In this document: positions 37,935 to 53,022 of the stretch, piece by piece | Layout: every line of letters begins with the position of its first letter | Position numbering within the stretch: the stretch's first letter is position 1 | Assembly (NCBI GenBank): GCA_022763185.1 | Contig: JALEGL010000015.1 | Span: forward strand, 124,001-188,000 | Length of the DNA stretch: 64,000 bases | Origin: a bacterium | Lineage (GTDB): Bacteria > Bdellovibrionota_G > JALEGL01 | Direction: 5' to 3' | The notes under the pieces: model-generated | Database searches by the model: none | What the model was told of the DNA's origin: nothing | What the model saw: only the letters and a program-made list of their open reading frames with translations | Made by a program: the position numbers and the translations under genes

Positions 37935-39362
37935 TTATTTACCTTCTTCATCAGCAGGCATGACTTCTTTTTGTACATCCAAATTTTTCTCTACAGTCAC
38001 TGTATCTTTAACAACAAACTCAACACGTCTGTTTAAACGTCTGTCTTCAGCAGTTTTTTCAGGGAAGACTTTTGGATTTTCTTCACCATGACCAACGGCT
38101 TTTAGTTTAGAAGCCTCAATACCTTTTCCAGCAAGGTATGCTGCTACCGCTTCAGCACGTTTTTGACTTAAAGATTTGTTCAAGGCTGCTCCACCAGTGG
38201 TGTCAGTGTGTCCATGAACAGTAATGGTAGAAATCTGATCCATAAATGGTGTTAGTTTCTCAGCAGCACTGTCTAAGATTGCATGACTTTCTGGTTTAAT
38301 TTGAGCACTACCACTGGCAAAGTTGATCTCACGAACAACACTCAACTCTTTTTTAACCACTTCAAGCTTTTCTTTGATAACTTCTTTCATTACCTTTGGC
38401 TCTGGAGTTGGCTCAGGTGTTGGCTCTGGAGCAGGAGCTGGCTCTGGGGCTGCAACTGGAGCTGCGCCACCTAAAGCAAGCTTAAGACCACCATAGTAAC
38501 TGAAGTCTTGACTTTCAGACTCGCCAATACCATCCCATGATGCACCACCAAATAGAACAGCTTTGCCTAATTTAGCTCTCAAACCACCACGAACAACAAT
38601 TGGATTTTGATCATCTTCATAATCAATGACATTGACAGATCCTAAACCTTCTAAGTTTAAACCTAAAACATCTAAAGAACCTTTGTCTTGTACCAAGTCT
38701 ATGCTAGCTGCAGCACCCCACTCAATACGGTTATCTCTATCAATGTTTTGAAAGTTTGCGTTACTGGCATGAGTGTAACCAGCATTAGCGTATAAACCAA
38801 CACGGTCCGCAACTCTGGTATCAACCAAAAATCTACCACCAAAAGCATAACTGTCATCTGACACAAAGTACTCTATGTCACCTGTTGGTAAAGTAGCATA
38901 AGGCATAACAGCAAAAGCCACTTTTGAATCATCACCGCTTAACCTTACTTTGGCATGAACTGTAACATCACCTACTGTCCAACTGTCTTGGTCAGAAGCT
39001 CCTGTTGCTGTTGCACCAACTGAAGTTAGATTAACATGGTGAACAGGTACATCAACACCTAGTAAAATTCTTGGGTTTATTAAGATACCAAAGCCAGCAT
39101 TGATGGTTTGAATATCATCAATCAATTGATCTACTTGGGTACCGCCTGATGAAATGGCCAGTGGATCATTTTGATAATCATAAGCAACACGAAAAATAAA
39201 ACGTGAACCATGCTCGGCAAGCTCACTGTTTGGATTAAGTGCACCGTGAACACTCACTGTTTCCAGTGTGTTAGAAAAATTAAATAAATGCGTATCTACT
39301 TGGTCAGCAAAGCTCGCGCCGGCTAACAAGAAGGACGCAATTAATAGTTTCAATTTTGACAT
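37935..39362 (-). CDS. OmpA-family outer-membrane protein
   Basis: A 475-residue protein with a signal peptide (cleavage near ASFA, residue ~19), a ~270-residue beta-barrel-like region, a Pro/Glu/Ala linker (APEPAPAPEPTPEPTPEPK, around 310) and a C-terminal OmpA peptidoglycan-binding domain. That domain has FASGSAQIKPES, VHGHTDTTGG and the RRLNRRVEF end block with the diaminopimelate-binding Asp/Arg. It should anchor the outer membrane to the cell wall. The barrel region resembles the one at the C-terminus of the giant protein at 43 kb (DPLA/NPLE block, then a 'LLGVDVPVHHV'-like strand), so the two are probably paralogues. Confidence 0.9.
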   Translation of the reverse strand: MSKLKLLIASFLLAGASFADQVDTHLFNFSNTLETVSVHGALNPNSELAEHGSRFIFRVAYDYQNDPLAISSGGTQVDQLIDDIQTINAGFGILINPRILLGVDVPVHHVNLTSVGATATGASDQDSWTVGDVTVHAKVRLSGDDSKVAFAVMPYATLPTGDIEYFVSDDSYAFGGRFLVDTRVADRVGLYANAGYTHASNANFQNIDRDNRIEWGAAASIDLVQDKGSLDVLGLNLEGLGSVNVIDYEDDQNPIVVRGGLRAKLGKAVLFGGASWDGIGESESQDFSYYGGLKLALGGAAPVAAPEPAPAPEPTPEPTPEPKVMKEVIKEKLEVVKKELSVVREINFASGSAQIKPESHAILDSAAEKLTPFMDQISTITVHGHTDTTGGAALNKSLSQKRAEAVAAYLAGKGIEASKLKAVGHGEENPKVFPEKTAEDRRLNRRVEFVVKDTVTVEKNLDVQKEVMPADEEGK

Positions 39363-42999: not shown

Positions 43000-43036
43000 A
43001 AAGTACCCAAAGGTACCGGCTACCTTTGGGTACTTT
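43000..43036 (-). terminator. 16-bp perfect hairpin at the end of the giant gene
   Basis: AAAGTACCCAAAGGTA (43000-43015), loop CCGGC, and its complement (43021-43036), touching the stop codon of the giant gene. Only three to four Ts follow on the - strand, so it may be more a palindrome-family member than a simple terminator. Its centre GGTACCGGCTACC resembles those at 23.1 and 55.6 kb. Confidence 0.65.
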
Positions 43037-44607
43037 TACTGTACAAAAAACTCAACTCTTCGGTTGAGGGCTCTGCCATCTGCTGTTGTGTTGCTGGCAA
43101 TAGGATCTGTTTCACCTTTGCCTTTGGCTGACACCGCTCTTGGGTCCATACCCAATTCAATCAAGTATTGTCTTACTGCATTGGCGCGCTCTGTTGAGAG
43201 TTCAAGGTTTTTCTCAGCATCGCCCAAGCTGTCTGTATGTGCTTCAACATACAGTTTATTGACTTTGGCTTTTTGAATTTTCTCATAGGCATCCAGCAAA
43301 ATCGCTTTGGCTTGGACATTAAGCTGGTATTGTCCAGATGCAAAATAAATTTTTCCATTCAAATCTAACTTTTCACCTTTGCCTTGGTCATAAACGATGC
43401 TGTAATTATTGTCTTGATTGGGTTTAATTTGAAAAATTTTACGCAAAGGTTTTTCACCATCACCCACCATCACCATGACCACACCTTCGTTTACGGTTTT
43501 ATTCAATTCACTGATTTCACCTTCAAACAATGGCTGGCTTTGACTGTCTGACATCACTTTAATCTGGGTATTGATTTTTTCACCGTATTTATCAACAATT
43601 TTCAAGTTAAGCATACCCGTTTGCCTTTGAATGGGTTTGGGTGTTGGTTTAGGCGTAGGGGTAGGTATTGGCTTGGGTTTTGGTTTTGGAGGTGTTGGTT
43701 TTTTAGGAATACTTTTGTTGGTGTAACTGATTCCGGTATACAATCTTACTTCTGGTGCACCATAACCATTGTTGCCTCCTCGTGATGTTCCCATGGTCCA
43801 CTTCCAGCGTTGATTTTTTGAAATTTTTTGTAGACCCAAATACATTTCACCCGGTGAATTGACTTCTTTGGGTTCATGAAGAGACATAGACCCAGACAAC
43901 TCAGCAAAGACTTGCCAGCCATCAGAATTTAAAAAGCGATAAACGTAACCCAATTTACCCATGACTTCACTGCCAATTTCTAAAGCTCCAATATTTTCTA
44001 TGTTGGGACGGTAGCGCCCGCCAAGGTTCATGGTAATATAGTGACGTTTCATGCCTCCCCAACGGTCTAAAACAAAATAACCCCCGCCAGTGATATCCTG
44101 ATTACCAAAAAAACGATTTTCTTCTCCAACCGGAAAGGTGACAAAAGGGACAAAACCAAAACCCCAAGTACCGCCAACAGCATTCCAGTTTTTTCCTTGC
44201 AGCTGCAGCAAGCCTTGCAAAGTAATATCTCCAACATTAAATTCTTTTGTACTGGTAAATTGAGAAAAGTTTTCTACATTGTTGTAAACATGAAAGGGTG
44301 CATGCACTTGAAAGCTAAAACGATCACTCACCCCAAAGCCCATCAATACATCCTGCGTGAAAATCCATTTAACAATATCATCAAGACGTTCGCCATCTCC
44401 ACTTGGACCAAATTCCAATGGATTTTTGGTCCAAGTAAAATAAGCCCCCACCGCATATTTACCCGGTTCAAGTGTGGTTGAGCTTAGAGCCTGATGACCA
44501 TCCGGATTAAGAATCTTGGGCGTAACATAATGAATGTTGATGGCCTGTGCCGGTTGACTCACAAGAAAGATACAAAGTCCAATCAGCAAAAATAAATTTT
44601 TTCTCAT
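43036..44607 (-). other. Internal OmpA-family module with its own start and signal peptide
   Basis: An ATG at 44607, in frame with the giant gene, begins MRKNLFLLIGLCIFLV and continues to SQPAQA, a complete signal peptide. The next ~520 residues form a full OmpA-family protein: barrel-like region, Pro/Lys-rich linker (~20 residues around 43650) and OmpA domain. It resembles the 475-residue OmpA-type protein at 37.9 kb. A weak AGAG lies 8 bases before the ATG. It may be translated separately, as well as or instead of as the tail of the giant protein. Confidence 0.6.
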
Positions 44608-47600
44608 CTTTGCTCTATCTACTTTTCTCAATAAAGCCATCAATACTGCTAGCAACATCAACAAGACAATACTTGGGTTAGAAGCCCCCGAGTTACAGAG
44701 CCCCCAATCCAAGAAACCCACTGTTCCTGAACCTCTTGGTGTAGCGTCATTGGGGTCACTGGGGTCCAAACCAAGATCAATTTCTTCACAGTCGGTCAAA
44801 CCATCACCATCAGTATCACGCACTGTTGGGCAATCATCTGTTGGGTCCAATGGATTGCTGTTAAAAATATTAACCTCATCGCCATCGTTGATGCCGCCGT
44901 TATCGGTATCAGCATCATTTCTATCGGTGCCGTAGGTACCATCCTCTTCACAATCCGTTAAACCATCGTTATCTGAATCTGGGTCCGCCAAAGGATTGCT
45001 GCCGTAAGTATTGACCTCTACACCATCCAAACAACCGTCCATATCAGTATCATTGCTGGTTGGATCGGTGTTGAAGGTATTGAGCTCAGCTCCATCCAAC
45101 AAACCATCGCCGTCGGTGTCTGGGTTATTGGGGTCACTGCCGGCATTGTATTCTTGACAATCGTTGGCGCCATCACTGTCGGTATCCGCTACATTGGGAT
45201 TGGTAAACAGGGTAGTGGCTTCCAAACAATCGTTGCAGCCATCGCCATCACTGTCGGTCACCAAAGGATTGGTCACTGGGCTCATGATGGTGCCCATACC
45301 TGGGAACCAGGCACTGTTTTCTGGATCATCGTATGGACACATGGCCGTGGTTCCAAAAATTTCACAGCCATCGGTACAACCATCGCCATCGCTGTCTGGA
45401 TCATTGGGATCGGTTCCAGCTGTGGCTTCATCACCGTTGGTCACACCATCATTATCTGCATCTTCATCCAAAAACGGATCATCGTTTGGATTTCTTGGAT
45501 CACTGGGCTCATTAGCTTCATCGCAGTCGTTGGTTCCACCATCATCGGTGTCGGCATCGGTTGGATCAGAAATAGGGCTCATCACCGTACCCGGCGCACT
45601 AGGATGACCAATAAACGGACAGCTGGCTTCTGCTGGTGGGTTGGTCCCAAAAACCTCGCAGCTGTCGGTACAGCCATCCATATCCGTGTCTGCCAAGGTT
45701 GGGTCAGACATCAATGTGGCTTCATCCATGTCAAGCAAGCCATCATCATCGGCATCGGTATCTTGGAAGTTAGGAATACCATCCATATCGGTGTCAACAG
45801 GTATGGTGTTGCTCATAGCATCGCCTGCTTCATTGCTATCAAGAATGGTATCATTGTCTGAGTCTGTGTCTCTAAAGTCTGGAATGCCGTCCGGCACCGT
45901 CTCAGAGTCAAACAAGTTGGCGTAGAGCGTAACCAACGTACCGGCATTGTACATGGGATAGGTTTCTGTGGCATCACTCTCATGCAGATCCAAAATGTTG
46001 TCGTTATCCGAATCCAGATCAAAGTAATCTGGCGTAGCGTCTGGCACGGTTTCACTATCCGCTAGATCACTGATGATCATGCCGCTTGGATAAGCAGCTT
46101 GATATTCTGCTAGACTGATGCTGCCATTGGCATTACCATCAATGTCAGATACATGCCCCTCAATGATATCACCAATGCCATCGCCATCAGCGTCAATATC
46201 AACATAGTTGAAGAAGGTATCATTGTCTTGATCACCCAGAGGCAACTCATTGTTTTGCAAGAGGCCATCCATGTTGGTATCGCTTGCTGCAACACAGGCC
46301 ATAACTTCAGTTGTGGTCAAATTAGCATCTTCATTGGCATCACAGACAAAACGTGCGCCTTCAATCAAGTCTGGAATCCCGTCGCCATCTGAATCAATGT
46401 CCAAGTGGTTGGGCGTGCCGTCGTTGTCTGTATCTGACAAGTCGCTGTCTTCTAAGACACCATCGCCATCGCCTAGCAATGCATAGAGCGCAGCTTGTTC
46501 AGGACTTTCAATTTGACCGTTATCATTGGCATCCACCGTGGCCAATTGCGCCGGCGTCAACTGACCAAAGAAGTTGTCTTCTAGGTCACTGATGCCATCG
46601 TTGTCAGAATCCGTATCTTGATAATCTGGAGTTCCATCACCGTCAGCATCCGGCAAGACACCGCCTGGTAATTCAGATTCACTGATGGCGCCGTCATCAT
46701 TTGTATCAAAACAGTTCATATCATCTCTGATTTCCATGTCACTGAGTTGCCCGTCCATGTTGGTGTCACATACACCCAAGCCAATTTCAATCATGTCCAA
46801 GATGCCATCGTTATCCGAGTCATTGTCCAGACTGTCTTCTTGGCCATCGCCATCGGTATCAACGCCGTTGCCGCCATCTTCACCGTCAATGAAACCGTCA
46901 CCGTCAGAGTCTGGGTCCATGCTATCATCCATACCGTCACCATCCGTGTCTGTACCAGAGCCACCAATGGTGAGTTCTTCACTGTCACTCAGACCATCGT
47001 TGTCATCATCGGCATCAATGTAATCTGGCGTACCATCACTGTCGGCGTCGCCGGTGCTATCCAAACTGTCACTGACGCCGTTGTCATCTGAGTCGGTGTC
47101 CAAATAATTGGGGACACCATCACTGTCAGCATCGGCCGTACCTTCATCTCCAGTGAGTTGGCCATCGCCATCGTGATCAGTATCCAAGGCCACGCTGTTG
47201 GAATCAGCACTGCTGTAGACTGTTTCGTTGGGATCAAGGCCGGCGTAGGTTGAATAATCCAAGCCTGCAATCAAATTGCTGATGCTGGCCACGCCAGGCA
47301 TCACAGGATCGCTGCAGCCATTGACAATACCATCATTATCTGGGTGGACGCCAATGGGGAAGTCCAAACCAGAATTGTCTGCTGCGCTTTCACAGCTGAC
47401 CGCCGTGGGGATGCTTATGGCATAATAAGCATCAGGCGCAATTTCATTCATGCCCATGGTGTTGCGGACCACAAACTCTAGGTTTTGCCGTGAATCAGCG
47501 CCAAAAGGTGAGCTTTCTATGATTTCGCTGGCTGTGATGGCTGCTGAGATATTCACACAGTCAGGATCAGAACTGACATCATGGCCACAGCTGTCGGTAT

Positions 47601-50600
47601 CCGCACCTTGTGAACAATAAAAGACGCTGGCACTTGTGGCTGAATATTGAAGGCCTTGTGGAAGCACATCAACCAAATTGTCCACGTCATAGGCAGTGCG
47701 ATCGCCAATATTTTCAATGTGCACCGCATAATTGACATTGCCAGCCAAAGTCACCGGGTCTTGGGTCCCGGCAATTGCACATTTGCTAAGCACCAACTCT
47801 GGGCGGTTGAAGTTTTGAAAGTCTGGCTGAGCAGGATCGTCTATGGCCACGGGTATGGTGTTAAGATCAGCATCGCCGGCTTCATCAGCGTCAAGGAAAC
47901 TGTCGCCATCGGAGTCAAGGTCTCTAAAGTCTGGAATCCCATCGGGCACAGCTTCACTGTCAAACAAATTACTGTAAAGAATAACAACAGAGCTGGTGTC
48001 ATAGCTTGGATACATTTCTGAAGCATCGCTTTCATGCATGTCATAGATGGTGTCACCATCACTGTCTAAATCAAAGATATCCGGCGTGCCATCAGGCGTA
48101 TCTTCAGAGTCTGCCAATTCACTGAACAAGAGATCACCGCCACCGTTGGCTGCGCTGTACTCAGCGTCGCTGATGCTGCCATTGACATCGGTATCAATGT
48201 CACTGTTGTAAGCTTCTATCCAATCGGCAATACCATCACCATCGCTGTCTATGTCAATGTAGTCTGGATCTGTATCGCTGGTGTGCGCTCCTGGCGCTGC
48301 TGCGTCACTGTTTGGCGCTGCTGCTTCATCCAATTGCAATAAACCATCGCCATCACCGTCGGTCAATGCACCACAAGCTGTAACTTCTGTTGAAGTGATA
48401 AAGCCATTGTCATCGCTATCACACACATAACGGCCATTCTCAACAAAGTCATAGACTCCGTCGTTATCTGAGTCTCTGTCTAAGAAATTGAGCAGACCAT
48501 CGCCATCGCTGTCTGGGATTTCATCAAAGTTTAAAACACTGTTGTCGTCATTGGCTCCACCGCTGACGTCATCTCCGGCGCCATCGTCAATATCATTTCC
48601 TTCAGCTGTTGTGATCAAGTTGTCCGCATTGTCATCATAAACCGTTAAACCCGATTCATCCAAATCTGGAATACCGTCTCCATCAGCATCTAGGTCTAGA
48701 TAATTGGCCATGCCATCGCCATCAACGTCGTCAAACGCTCCGCCTGGCAGTTCCGTAACGCTGATAGCCCCATCCATATTGCTATCCAAACCACTGGCCG
48801 CAATTTCTGCAGTACTTAATAGGCCATTGCCATCGCTGTCATAGACATGGAACATGTGTTCTAATAAATCAGGAATACCATCATTATCTGAATCCAAATC
48901 CAAATAATCTGGCGTGCCATCACTGTCACTGTCTGTACCAGGACCACCTTCATCACCGTCCAAAATACCATCACCATCTGAGTCGTTATCCAAATAGTCT
49001 GGGGTACCGTCTCCATCTGAATCAATCATTGTTCCCATTGAGGTGGTGATTTCATCGGCATCAGTTACGCCATCATTATCATCATCGGTATCTTGGTAAT
49101 CTGGTGTGCCATCACCATCGGCATCGCCTGTGCCTTCAGTAGCATCATCGGTACCGTTGTCATCTGAGTCAGTATCCAAGTAATTGGGGACACCATCGCC
49201 ATCAGCATCGCCAGAGCCTTCATTGCCATTGGCAATGCCGTCACCGTCATGGTCAACATCTAAAGCAGGAGAGGTATCATCCGTTGCACCAAAGGTTGCT
49301 TCACCGGCAACAACGCCATCTAAACTGCTGTAACTGGCCAAAGATGCCGTATTGCTGATGCTACTGACATAAGGCATGACTGGATCTGTACAACCATTGA
49401 CTACACCATCATCATCCGGATGAGAACCAATGGGTGAGTTTACGCCGTCACTATCACTGGCGGATTCACAGGATACTTCGGTTTGAATTTGATACACCAC
49501 ATAGGCCTCTTCCCCTAAGTCATCGCCAGCAGCGGGGTCAACAAAAGGAAATGTTAAGTTTTGACGGCTGTCTCCACCAAACGGTGAGCTTTCAGCACTT
49601 TCACCACTTCTCACGCTGGCACTGATATCCGTAAGCATGGCCGTACAATCACTTTGCTCCCAAGCCGAACAGTTACCCGCATTAACAGAGCTGGCACCAG
49701 AAGAGCAATAATATGCGTTCACGGTATTGGCAGCGTATTGCAAACCTTGTGGTAAAACATCACTGATATCAGACAAATCAAATGCCGTACTTAAAAACGA
49801 CCCACTGTTTTTAACAACAATGTTATAGCCAAGCGTATCACTTAAATTAAACGGCTCTAAAGCTTCTGTACTTGCATCTGCACATTTAATAACAGTGATG
49901 TCGGGTTTGTTGAGGGTAAAGGTTTCGTTGTCTGAATCCACGGTGATATCGTCCGAACCGTCATTGAATCTGAATTGGCCCTCTAAATTTTTGTTATTCG
50001 CAGAAACATTGCGAGTTTGCGCTTGAAAAGAAAAGGTTGCAGTTCTCCCACTAAGGTCGGTGGCCGTGTTGGAGGCTGTCCCTAAATCGATGAATGCTTG
50101 AGTATTTGAACTGGCATCAAGCGAATTTTCAGGGTCATTGCCAAAACAAAGTTCTGTTCCTCCCAAAACGCAGTATGGCCCAGTGCCACTCACACCGCCA
50201 CTGACCGCAATGGTGTAATCCCCTGGAGTGTTTGATCCCCAAAAATTACCAGAAATCTCTCTTAAGATCGCTCGCGTCGATGCTGCTTGTCCCTGTGGAA
50301 AGTTGACCACAACATCAAAAGTCACAAAATCGCCTACGGTGCCACTGACCGGGCTAACGCCAACCGTACCCAGACTTGGCGCTTCAATTTGGGCTTCGCT
50401 TTCATCGTCTACTGGGGAAAACGTGGTACCCCCTAAAACCGATGCAAACACAGCTTGAGCACTGTTGGTGTAAGTGTTACCCCAAATGGCATCAGGCACC
50501 AAGCGTAAATCAAAGCGAATTTCACAGGTATCGCCAGATGCAATACTCATGTCAATGATTTCAATTGTGGTTTCATCAACATTGCTGGTGATGTCAGGCA

Positions 50601-53022
50601 CACTGCTGTTGGAGCATTCAGGGCTCAGACTAATATTATAGCCACAGGCAACATCCATACAGGCTGCCGATGTACTCGGAGCAACAAAGCCCGTGTTTAT
50701 CACATCTGTAAACACAACATCCAAAGCTTCTTGCTGACCACTGTTTTCTAGAGTAACCAAGTAAGATAAGACCGCATTGGCATCAACATCACTGATGTTG
50801 CCATCGGTGATGCTTGCATTGGGGTCATCTGTAGATTCAACCCCTTTATCAATATTTAAAAATGGGGCATCGCCAATAAACAGATAGGTTCCTGTGGCAC
50901 CCACCAATGCAGTGTTGGCACTGTTGTTGTATTGGGTCACCACCATGTTGTTTTGCAACAACCCATCCAGAAAAGGTTCGTTGGTCACTGTTTTGGTAAA
51001 AAACAACTCCACTGTGCCCGAACCGCCCCCTGCAATTTCAAAGTCTACAAAAGCAAAGTTGATGCTGTTGTTAGGATTACTGCACGTAAGCGTAATATCC
51101 CCACTGGCCAAAGCCGGATCATTGGTACCAAAACTCCACATATTGTTGGCTGGGATGGCGGCGCCATCGTAGGTGAGGCAAGGAGACTCATCAAACAAGG
51201 GGTTGGCCAAGTAGTTGGTTAAATTTAAATCTTCTACGTCTCCCCCTGGAATCAACACCGTAATTTTATACGTCACTTCATCACCGGCCTCAACATGAAC
51301 CGCACCCATGCCCACAGGACTGCCATTAACATGGGAAATTTCAACCTGAGTATCTTGTAAGGATACAATGCTTGGATTGTCTTGCTCAGTATTATCAGGA
51401 TAAGTATCATCATTGGCACTTTCCCCCATATTTCCACCAACAACATCGTAATTTGTTAGGGTGGCGTTGGGTAACGGAAAGACATCACCGGCATCAATGG
51501 ATACATCTGTGGTAGGAGGTAGAGTCTCAAAGTCTTCATCAACGATGGCTTGGTAGATGATCTGTATACCTGTGCTTGATCCTGAGCTGAACACACCATC
51601 CCCTGAGAGCGTAGTGTCCGCAAAAGAAAAATTGACCGTATCGGCCATAAGGCTACCTATATCTAAAGAAAAATCACTGCTGCCATCAGGGTACGTATTT
51701 TGTGTCAAATGACCAAAAGCCAGTAAATCTGCTTCATTGATGTTGGTGATAACACCGCCTTCGTTAACCACCACCATCATGCTACTGGTTGCATAACTCA
51801 GTCCATCTGGTAAAGCATCCCCTATCACCAAATTATTCACTTCATAATAGTCGCTAAGAGCCACATCCACTGTAAACTCAAGGCTGTCTAAAGGCGTTAA
51901 ACCAGATCCCCCCATGTCTGTTGCAAGACTCCAGCTTTTCTCTATATCCAAGCCATAGGCTCTATACGTTGCGGTATCTAAAACAGGTGAGCTTAGTTCA
52001 TCAGCATTGGCAACCACACCGGTTGTTTCTGCTGTAGCACTAAGTGTATTGGGGTCAACAATCTCTGAAGCATCATCTCTAAACTGTTTGTATACCCCCA
52101 TATAACTGATATTAAAATTTGCATTGATGCTGGCGTAGCTGATGCCAATGGTCCCTCCGGTGGCAGAAGAAATATCTGGCGTGTAGACACAGCTCGTTGG
52201 TGCTGGTGTAATGCTAAATGAACTACAATCTCCTGGATCGCTTACTTCTAAAATTTCTGGAATAGTCTCCTCAATGGTGACGTTATTTAAAGTGACAACA
52301 TTTGAAATTGAACCGGCAATATTCACCGTTTCTGGGTATGTTGGTCCTGCTCCCAAGGCAATGTTGGCACTTAAACTGCCATTGGTACTTGTCACGGTTT
52401 TATTTATTTTTAAAGCTTGGGCGGTAACATCATCGGTTTGCGCCAAAGAACAAAGGGTATCCGAAGCGCCGCAATCTCCAGGTGCACCATTGACCAAACC
52501 ACCAAGCACGTACATGGCTTGGGCTTGTCTGAATGTGTAAGGTGTTCCTGCAACGGCAATGGGTTGGCTCATGCCATCTAAGGTAAAATCAAAGCCTACG
52601 GTGCATCGTATTTCAGGTTGATCTGGAGCATGCGAACCCAAGTTGGGCTTTATCGCAACAAAGGTTTCTCCTGCTTGCAGGGTAAAAATTTCTCCAGTGA
52701 ACGGATTTTCTACATCCAGCGTATCCACTGCTGAGGGATTGTTTTGTACATCAATACTGGATACACCCAGATTTTGACAAGCATTACTGCCATTGTAGGT
52801 AAACTCTTTTGGAGCAATGAAGTGGAAGGCCGGAAAAAAACCAGAGTCTGTGGCGTCGGTATTATCCAATATCATCCTGACATCAAATGATTGGTTTAAC
52901 AATGGATCTGCATTATTGCTTGGGGCATTAAATGTTAAAGTTGGAACTGGCGCTGCATAGGCTGACAAAGCCCATAGACCAACAAACAGTAAAAAGACGA
53001 CTTGAATCAATTTATGTTTCAT
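43036..53022 (-). CDS. Giant surface protein: DUF11 + TSP3/EF-hand repeats fused to OmpA-type barrel
   Basis: A 3328-residue protein. Order: signal peptide (1-23, ends AYA); several DUF11-like beta-sandwich domains to ~1040; unit A, a DUF11-like domain (~1040-1245) plus a calcium-repeat block (~1250-1730); unit B, a second copy (~1740-2410); more Cys-containing TSP3 repeats to ~2750; a tail with a cysteine, a hydrophobic helix and basic residues (GLCNSGASNPSIVLLMLLA, then LLRK, ~2775-2805), like a MYXO-CTERM-type sorting signal. After this the frame continues at Met2806 into a second signal peptide, a beta-barrel region, a Pro/Lys linker and an OmpA peptidoglycan-binding domain (HTDSLG, LNRRVEF). 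Calcium loops are DSDGDGTPDYLD-like and EF-hand-like. Probably an adhesin or surface-layer protein. Whether it is made as one chain is uncertain. Confidence 0.88.
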   Translation of the reverse strand: MKHKLIQVVFLLFVGLWALSAYAAPVPTLTFNAPSNNADPLLNQSFDVRMILDNTDATDSGFFPAFHFIAPKEFTYNGSNACQNLGVSSIDVQNNPSAVDTLDVENPFTGEIFTLQAGETFVAIKPNLGSHAPDQPEIRCTVGFDFTLDGMSQPIAVAGTPYTFRQAQAMYVLGGLVNGAPGDCGASDTLCSLAQTDDVTAQALKINKTVTSTNGSLSANIALGAGPTYPETVNIAGSISNVVTLNNVTIEETIPEILEVSDPGDCSSFSITPAPTSCVYTPDISSATGGTIGISYASINANFNISYMGVYKQFRDDASEIVDPNTLSATAETTGVVANADELSSPVLDTATYRAYGLDIEKSWSLATDMGGSGLTPLDSLEFTVDVALSDYYEVNNLVIGDALPDGLSYATSSMMVVVNEGGVITNINEADLLAFGHLTQNTYPDGSSDFSLDIGSLMADTVNFSFADTTLSGDGVFSSGSSTGIQIIYQAIVDEDFETLPPTTDVSIDAGDVFPLPNATLTNYDVVGGNMGESANDDTYPDNTEQDNPSIVSLQDTQVEISHVNGSPVGMGAVHVEAGDEVTYKITVLIPGGDVEDLNLTNYLANPLFDESPCLTYDGAAIPANNMWSFGTNDPALASGDITLTCSNPNNSINFAFVDFEIAGGGSGTVELFFTKTVTNEPFLDGLLQNNMVVTQYNNSANTALVGATGTYLFIGDAPFLNIDKGVESTDDPNASITDGNISDVDANAVLSYLVTLENSGQQEALDVVFTDVINTGFVAPSTSAACMDVACGYNISLSPECSNSSVPDITSNVDETTIEIIDMSIASGDTCEIRFDLRLVPDAIWGNTYTNSAQAVFASVLGGTTFSPVDDESEAQIEAPSLGTVGVSPVSGTVGDFVTFDVVVNFPQGQAASTRAILREISGNFWGSNTPGDYTIAVSGGVSGTGPYCVLGGTELCFGNDPENSLDASSNTQAFIDLGTASNTATDLSGRTATFSFQAQTRNVSANNKNLEGQFRFNDGSDDITVDSDNETFTLNKPDITVIKCADASTEALEPFNLSDTLGYNIVVKNSGSFLSTAFDLSDISDVLPQGLQYAANTVNAYYCSSGASSVNAGNCSAWEQSDCTAMLTDISASVRSGESAESSPFGGDSRQNLTFPFVDPAAGDDLGEEAYVVYQIQTEVSCESASDSDGVNSPIGSHPDDDGVVNGCTDPVMPYVSSISNTASLASYSSLDGVVAGEATFGATDDTSPALDVDHDGDGIANGNEGSGDADGDGVPNYLDTDSDDNGTDDATEGTGDADGDGTPDYQDTDDDNDGVTDADEITTSMGTMIDSDGDGTPDYLDNDSDGDGILDGDEGGPGTDSDSDGTPDYLDLDSDNDGIPDLLEHMFHVYDSDGNGLLSTAEIAASGLDSNMDGAISVTELPGGAFDDVDGDGMANYLDLDADGDGIPDLDESGLTVYDDNADNLITTAEGNDIDDGAGDDVSGGANDDNSVLNFDEIPDSDGDGLLNFLDRDSDNDGVYDFVENGRYVCDSDDNGFITSTEVTACGALTDGDGDGLLQLDEAAAPNSDAAAPGAHTSDTDPDYIDIDSDGDGIADWIEAYNSDIDTDVNGSISDAEYSAANGGGDLLFSELADSEDTPDGTPDIFDLDSDGDTIYDMHESDASEMYPSYDTSSVVILYSNLFDSEAVPDGIPDFRDLDSDGDSFLDADEAGDADLNTIPVAIDDPAQPDFQNFNRPELVLSKCAIAGTQDPVTLAGNVNYAVHIENIGDRTAYDVDNLVDVLPQGLQYSATSASVFYCSQGADTDSCGHDVSSDPDCVNISAAITASEIIESSPFGADSRQNLEFVVRNTMGMNEIAPDAYYAISIPTAVSCESAADNSGLDFPIGVHPDNDGIVNGCSDPVMPGVASISNLIAGLDYSTYAGLDPNETVYSSADSNSVALDTDHDGDGQLTGDEGTADADSDGVPNYLDTDSDDNGVSDSLDSTGDADSDGTPDYIDADDDNDGLSDSEELTIGGSGTDTDGDGMDDSMDPDSDGDGFIDGEDGGNGVDTDGDGQEDSLDNDSDNDGILDMIEIGLGVCDTNMDGQLSDMEIRDDMNCFDTNDDGAISESELPGGVLPDADGDGTPDYQDTDSDNDGISDLEDNFFGQLTPAQLATVDANDNGQIESPEQAALYALLGDGDGVLEDSDLSDTDNDGTPNHLDIDSDGDGIPDLIEGARFVCDANEDANLTTTEVMACVAASDTNMDGLLQNNELPLGDQDNDTFFNYVDIDADGDGIGDIIEGHVSDIDGNANGSISLAEYQAAYPSGMIISDLADSETVPDATPDYFDLDSDNDNILDLHESDATETYPMYNAGTLVTLYANLFDSETVPDGIPDFRDTDSDNDTILDSNEAGDAMSNTIPVDTDMDGIPNFQDTDADDDGLLDMDEATLMSDPTLADTDMDGCTDSCEVFGTNPPAEASCPFIGHPSAPGTVMSPISDPTDADTDDGGTNDCDEANEPSDPRNPNDDPFLDEDADNDGVTNGDEATAGTDPNDPDSDGDGCTDGCEIFGTTAMCPYDDPENSAWFPGMGTIMSPVTNPLVTDSDGDGCNDCLEATTLFTNPNVADTDSDGANDCQEYNAGSDPNNPDTDGDGLLDGAELNTFNTDPTSNDTDMDGCLDGVEVNTYGSNPLADPDSDNDGLTDCEEDGTYGTDRNDADTDNGGINDGDEVNIFNSNPLDPTDDCPTVRDTDGDGLTDCEEIDLGLDPSDPNDATPRGSGTVGFLDWGLCNSGASNPSIVLLMLLAVLMALLRKVDRAKMRKNLFLLIGLCIFLVSQPAQAINIHYVTPKILNPDGHQALSSTTLEPGKYAVGAYFTWTKNPLEFGPSGDGERLDDIVKWIFTQDVLMGFGVSDRFSFQVHAPFHVYNNVENFSQFTSTKEFNVGDITLQGLLQLQGKNWNAVGGTWGFGFVPFVTFPVGEENRFFGNQDITGGGYFVLDRWGGMKRHYITMNLGGRYRPNIENIGALEIGSEVMGKLGYVYRFLNSDGWQVFAELSGSMSLHEPKEVNSPGEMYLGLQKISKNQRWKWTMGTSRGGNNGYGAPEVRLYTGISYTNKSIPKKPTPPKPKPKPIPTPTPKPTPKPIQRQTGMLNLKIVDKYGEKINTQIKVMSDSQSQPLFEGEISELNKTVNEGVVMVMVGDGEKPLRKIFQIKPNQDNNYSIVYDQGKGEKLDLNGKIYFASGQYQLNVQAKAILLDAYEKIQKAKVNKLYVEAHTDSLGDAEKNLELSTERANAVRQYLIELGMDPRAVSAKGKGETDPIASNTTADGRALNRRVEFFVQ
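44740..49265 (-). repeat. TSP3/EF-hand-coding repeat region, in two ~2-kb duplicated units
   Basis: Dozens of DxDxDG-type repeats occupy this stretch, interrupted at ~47205-47835 by a DUF11-like domain. EF-hand-like loops (DSDGNGLLSTAE, DTNMDGQLSDME and others) are interspersed. The order of elements in ~47835-49900 is repeated in ~45740-47800, including the distinctive ends DFRDLDSDGDSFLDADEAGDA and DFRDTDSDNDTILDSNEAGDA. Confidence 0.85.

Follow-up and report, generated by a model that had tools for sequence, protein, structure and literature searches.

The question raised by this locus is whether one bacterial reading frame encodes both a surface protein and its outer-membrane partner. In the 64,000-nucleotide stretch of DNA analysed here (the window), a surface protein with a C-terminal sorting-like tail runs in frame, through ATG 44607, into a signal peptide and a barrel-linker-OmpA protein. 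The original prediction had recognised this stop-free arrangement and had offered two explanations: either two genes became joined when a stop codon was lost, or a single precursor gives rise to two partners. The arrangement itself was borne out, as the 3,328 codons form one frame with no internal stop (Table 1). The predicted tail, with its cysteine, hydrophobic helix and basic residues, was likewise present and reads G2774-L-C2776-NSGASNPS-IVLLMLLAVLMALL-RKVDRAK2805. The second signal peptide, starting at M2806, reads MRKNLFLLIGLCIFLVSQPAQA with A-Q-A before the cut point and INIHY after it. Profile matches and repeat motifs confirmed the calcium-repeat character of the surface module.

Table 1. 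Features of the fused gene in the window (positions are those of the window).
Feature	Position	Strand	Basis and remarks
Whole fused gene	43036..53022	(-)	3,328 aa, single open frame
First signal peptide, residues 1-24, MKHKLIQVVFLLFVGLWALSAYAA	52951..53022	(-)	Direct sequence reading; cleavage position approximate
Surface module: DUF11/pilin-like domains and long TSP3-type calcium-repeat regions	44752..52950	(-)	Pfam DUF11, TSP3_bac; TIGR01451 repeats; 28 DxDxDGxxD motifs
Internal sorting-like tail, residues 2774-2805: Cys2776, hydrophobic helix 2785-2798, basic RKVDRAK	44608..44703	(-)	Sequence reading; aligned to fused relatives and to the C-terminal tail of a second protein from this genome
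Second, internal signal peptide, residues 2806-2827, A-Q-A site	44542..44607	(-)	ATG 44607 = M2806; sequence reading
TraB-like outer-membrane beta-barrel, residues 2828-3108	43699..44541	(-)	NF033763 TraB model positions 40-321, E 2e-14; strands predicted, low confidence
Proline-rich linker and beta-rich (Ig-like) segment	43348..43698	(-)	Sequence; model strands 309-384, pLDDT about 70-80
OmpA peptidoglycan-binding domain, residues 3226-3321	43060..43347	(-)	PF00691 E 9e-21; PDB relatives such as 6jfw, YfiB, Pal

A large internal duplication was seen in the surface module (approximately 46000-50000, minus strand; residues about 1047-1560 and 1790-2330). The duplicated blocks are two similar DUF11-plus-TSP3 units, each with a motif like SCESA..IG.HPD.DG.VNGC.DPVMP.

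The top-scoring curated model for the C-terminal half was TraB (NF033763). The whole protein scored 100 bits and the barrel alone, in a whole-genome search, 51 bits; neither reached the curated score of 700 bits. Model positions 385-498 were matched in addition to those of the barrel, and a homologous barrel followed by OmpA is therefore present. By sequence comparison, the C-terminal half is a TraB relative and not TraB under the curated rule. Our own barrel profile (A1), of which the window sequence is itself a part, scored the window barrel at 391.8 bits. An AlphaFold model of the barrel from a three-row alignment had a pLDDT of 52 and a pTM of 0.28, and only its strand/helix pattern was used. 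The same genome encodes two full-length stand-alone barrel paralogues and a third, more distant one in the window; a stand-alone paralogue matches TraB positions 47-501 with 167 bits. The copy in the window is an unfused barrel-OmpA gene (37935-39362, minus strand), distantly related to the fused one.

Profile A1 was run over 385 relatives, and a wider profile (A3) over 195 genomes of the G032 phylum and 46 genomes of the G272 phylum; the frames upstream of the barrels were then read. The order cysteine, helix, basic loop, second helix and barrel is shared by 41 loci from at least four phyla, counted as those of the window, G032, G272 and G291; G233, G131 and G267, absent from the phylum listings searched, may add others. 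The choice of loci rested on score and frame length, and the set includes some close relatives or nearly identical copies, so these counts are not frequencies. This hairpin was present in all 20 long-frame loci picked in the G032 phylum. The 15 long frames picked in the G272 phylum comprised 10 with the hairpin, four with a single helix and one that was rejected. In every one of the 41 loci the loop between the helices has 3-18 residues and a net charge of +2 to +7, and is common to the tail and the second signal peptide. An A-x-A site was found in 26 of the first 31 hairpin loci. The recurrence of the architecture in 41 loci is more than chance.

Four apparent long frames (L090, L093, L121 and L225) were rejected, the upstream part being low-complexity or apparently non-coding and the tail absent. 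L097 was not counted, its tail being a CFI-box-CTERM. At this locus (L097:1752-2513 and upstream, G265) a barrel of the family stands in frame after a recognised CFI-box-CTERM (100.9 bits), with no Cys-helix-basic tail.

The presence of ATG 44607 raises the possibility that the two halves are made as separate proteins, with translation of the barrel-OmpA part starting independently at this codon. The ATG is correctly placed in the window, and traA and traB of Myxococcus overlap by 4 bases (PMC3325183). However, the Shine-Dalgarno sequence ahead of it is weak (-2.1 kcal/mol, against a gene median of -3.9), and the frame is open through the tail. Moreover, the loop contains no ATG, GTG or TTG in 30 of the 41 loci, so that in those the second signal peptide is unlikely to have an initiation site of its own. 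The same holds for the same-phylum fused relative L041 (contig JANQFH010000021.1, an "Oligoflexia" MAG), whose two helices have no start codon between them and whose junction reads GIGCGRINQSESMTATCLLIVVLVAALLFI-RRGFKR-LSLVLLLTTGTLLTSQLALA-FNVQ. Separate translation is thus considered improbable. In the fused locus L084 the junction reads TSCSLNPTNDSSATPSIIIIICAMIVVPVFF-RKKK-VAITAVTLFGLLMIASPAKA-LDVQ.

Whether relatives carry one gene or two at this site had been posed as a check, and both arrangements were found. Besides the fused hairpin loci, 8 of 57 unfused barrels lie directly adjacent to a gene ending in a Cys-helix-basic tail (seven upstream, one downstream). Such a tail occurred in 8 of 63 adjacent same-strand frames and in 8 of 1,148 other frames (p = 3e-7), a contrast somewhat flattered by the non-coding frames in the background. 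The same-phylum genome G004 combines both arrangements: one contig carries the fused form, other contigs two split pairs. Mapped on an 87-row barrel tree, the fused label requires a minimum of nine changes, five of them imposed by well-supported branches. The window barrel, L041 and L084, all fused, cluster together (support 94); barrel identity is 36% between L041 and the window and 32% between L084 and L041. These changes indicate that fusion or fission occurred repeatedly, and that the fused state of the window gene is common to two distant lineages.

An alternative is a sequencing or assembly error, or two genes that recently lost the stop codon separating them. In its favour, a frame with two complete signal peptides resembles two genes, and unfused pairs do exist. 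This reading, part of the original prediction, did not survive the comparison: fused homologues occur across several families and phyla, most of them without a start codon at the junction, and the cluster on the barrel tree is fused throughout. It is therefore regarded as very improbable. The fused design recurs across several bacterial phyla and is both real and repeatedly evolved.

How such a chain could be processed was considered from the tail and from the enzymes encoded in the genome. The tail had been described as MYXO-CTERM-like. This is correct for the layout, since the invariant cysteine, the helix and the basic cluster are all in place, and not for the curated MYXO-CTERM model TIGR03901 (20 bits), to which the tail gave no match. 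Its only sorting-domain match was to PEP-CTERM, at 12.6 bits and below the cut-off of 16. The tails of some relatives lie near or above the MYXO-CTERM cut-off (L088, 18.3 bits; L045, 27.6 bits). The window genome encodes the type II secretin GspD and two CPBP proteases, located at L125 1420-2106 and L126 1204-1785; both proteases fell below the cut-offs of all sorting-system models, and no cognate myxosortase was recognised among its proteins. A search of the genome with a tail profile (A4) returned one other tailed protein, L124. As A4 includes the tails of both the window protein and L124, their strong scores are circular, and the informative outcome is the lack of further matches. L124 (G000 contig C12, L124:793-1608, plus strand) is a 271-aa TSP3 protein that ends in an ordinary Cys-helix-RKRQNA tail.

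The hairpin is not universal in the family. At L219, L220, L221 and L222 (genomes G610, G614, G612 and G611) a cysteine and one hydrophobic helix lead directly into the barrel, with neither a basic loop nor a second signal peptide (example segment GCSVAGGGGGFSMLFWWLFLIFSIGFVPKVWG). A barrel behind a single stop-transfer helix would stay in the cytoplasm, and this helix must therefore be translocated or handled differently. A model with two cuts in a hairpin cannot explain these junctions. They keep alive the alternative that the chain is uncut at the tail, the adhesin and barrel forming one mature protein in which the hydrophobic pair is a linker or an inner-membrane hairpin. The failure of the window tail against the MYXO-CTERM model is in line with this. 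An intact hairpin, however, would keep the adhesin in the inner membrane. The two helices around a basic loop in 41 loci, the frequent signal-peptidase-type A-x-A sites and the existence of split pairs with true terminal tails also argue against an uncut chain, which is considered unlikely.

Taken together, the gene is probably a fused precursor of a TraA-TraB-like two-partner surface system, consisting of a calcium-repeat adhesin and an outer-membrane, peptidoglycan-bound base. In the proposed mechanism, the first signal peptide would direct the adhesin through Sec until the Cys-tail helix lodges in the inner membrane, its basic residues remaining in the cytoplasm. The same residues may also provide an n-region for the second signal peptide, which would restart export of the barrel. 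With the loop serving as cytoplasmic end of the tail and as start of the second signal peptide, both secreted halves would be periplasmic. Signal peptidase I would then cut at AQA, and the released barrel-OmpA part would pass to the BAM complex and peptidoglycan. The tail would retain the adhesin until cleavage by a membrane protease at or near Cys2776, a probable lipidation site; the adhesin would then reach the surface, plausibly via the type II system. Each chain would thus yield adhesin and anchor at exactly 1:1. For the myxobacterial pair the TraA:TraB ratio was measured as 1:1 (0.98), with TraA predicted to sit atop the TraB barrel (PMC12045341), and a fused precursor would guarantee such a ratio.

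The precursor reading is favoured by the same-phylum fusion lacking a start codon, the 41 hairpin loci, the split pairs, the TraB homology, the published TraA-TraB and MXAN_5598 precedents, GspD, the two CPBP proteases and L124. The sub-threshold scores of the tail and of the CPBP proteases, the finding of one other tailed protein only and the single-helix relatives count against it. Of the two explanations first offered, one precursor giving two partners is the better fit, backed by the split pairs and the TraA-TraB stoichiometry; its cleavage is a predicted step.

In the window gene one frame runs from a signal peptide and adhesin through an internal Cys-helix-basic tag and a further signal peptide to the barrel and OmpA, the order known from MXAN_5598 of Myxococcus xanthus. 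In the 2025 description of this protein, an adhesin carrying an internal MYXO-CTERM continues into a barrel and OmpA, possibly through gene fusion (PMC11980579); the protein has been detected in vesicles (PMC4158809). The same report likens it to TraA-TraB, proposes processing and calls internal tags rare, with one example. The claim that either explanation would be novel was therefore too strong, the architecture and the proposal being already published. Two differences were noted. MXAN_5598 has a recognised MYXO-CTERM and belongs to a phylum with myxosortase, whereas the window gene is from another phylum and its tail fails the model. Also, MXAN_5598 lies beside ftsA/ftsZ, whereas the window gene is outside the fts cluster and its neighbours are phospholipid genes (phosphatidylserine decarboxylase and a PssA-like frame). 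The fts location fits L088, which adjoins ftsA and ftsQ. As MXAN_5598 is reported in a large cell division cluster, we infer that the G032 phylum is Myxococcota and L088 the likely orthologue.

With the TraA-TraB outer membrane exchange pair, the window gene shares a tagged surface receptor and a barrel-OmpA partner with a homologous barrel. Unlike that pair, encoded by two overlapping genes, it is a single gene, and the score of its barrel falls well short of the TraB cut-off. The surface module here is of the DUF11/TSP3 type, in place of the PA14-like variable domain and Cys repeats of TraA. The tail resembles those of the MYXO-CTERM/myxosortase and GlyGly-CTERM/rhombosortase systems in its short Cys motif (Gly-rich in GlyGly-CTERM), helix and basic end; in contrast to both, the tag is internal, and no curated tail or sorting-enzyme model was reached at its cut-off. 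For MYXO-CTERM proteins a pathway has been modelled, and in part demonstrated, in which MrtX cuts the tag and the protein leaves by type II secretion (PMC11980579).

With one published example of the architecture, several elements are new relative to the literature searched. The window gene is a member from outside Myxococcota whose tail is not recognised, fusions of this kind are widespread and arose repeatedly, and tail and second signal peptide share a positive loop that mostly lacks start codons. The statistical association with split pairs and the single-helix junction are likewise new. The survey suggests a common design, especially in Myxococcota, by which a surface protein is tied to an outer-membrane anchor in fixed ratio. 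It offers a testable route to the anchoring of large adhesins in Gram-negative bacteria, pairs unknown adhesins with partners and points to a Cys-tail sorting route beyond the known MYXO-CTERM range. A wider generalisation is offered only tentatively. There may be a cross-phylum class of surface precursors, gained or lost several times, that are split through a shared-loop hairpin into adhesin and peptidoglycan-bound base; outside Myxococcota they might be cut by an unrecognised Cys-tail protease, and in one clade the junction might have been reduced to one helix that follows a different processing logic.

Two further observations concern the family at large. A TraB-like barrel was found in 46 of 46 genomes (1.1-4.6 Mb) of the G272 phylum, often in several copies. 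In the fused member L115 (G291:C369) the frame stays open for some 8,000 codons, of which more than 5,700 aa were read upstream of the barrel.
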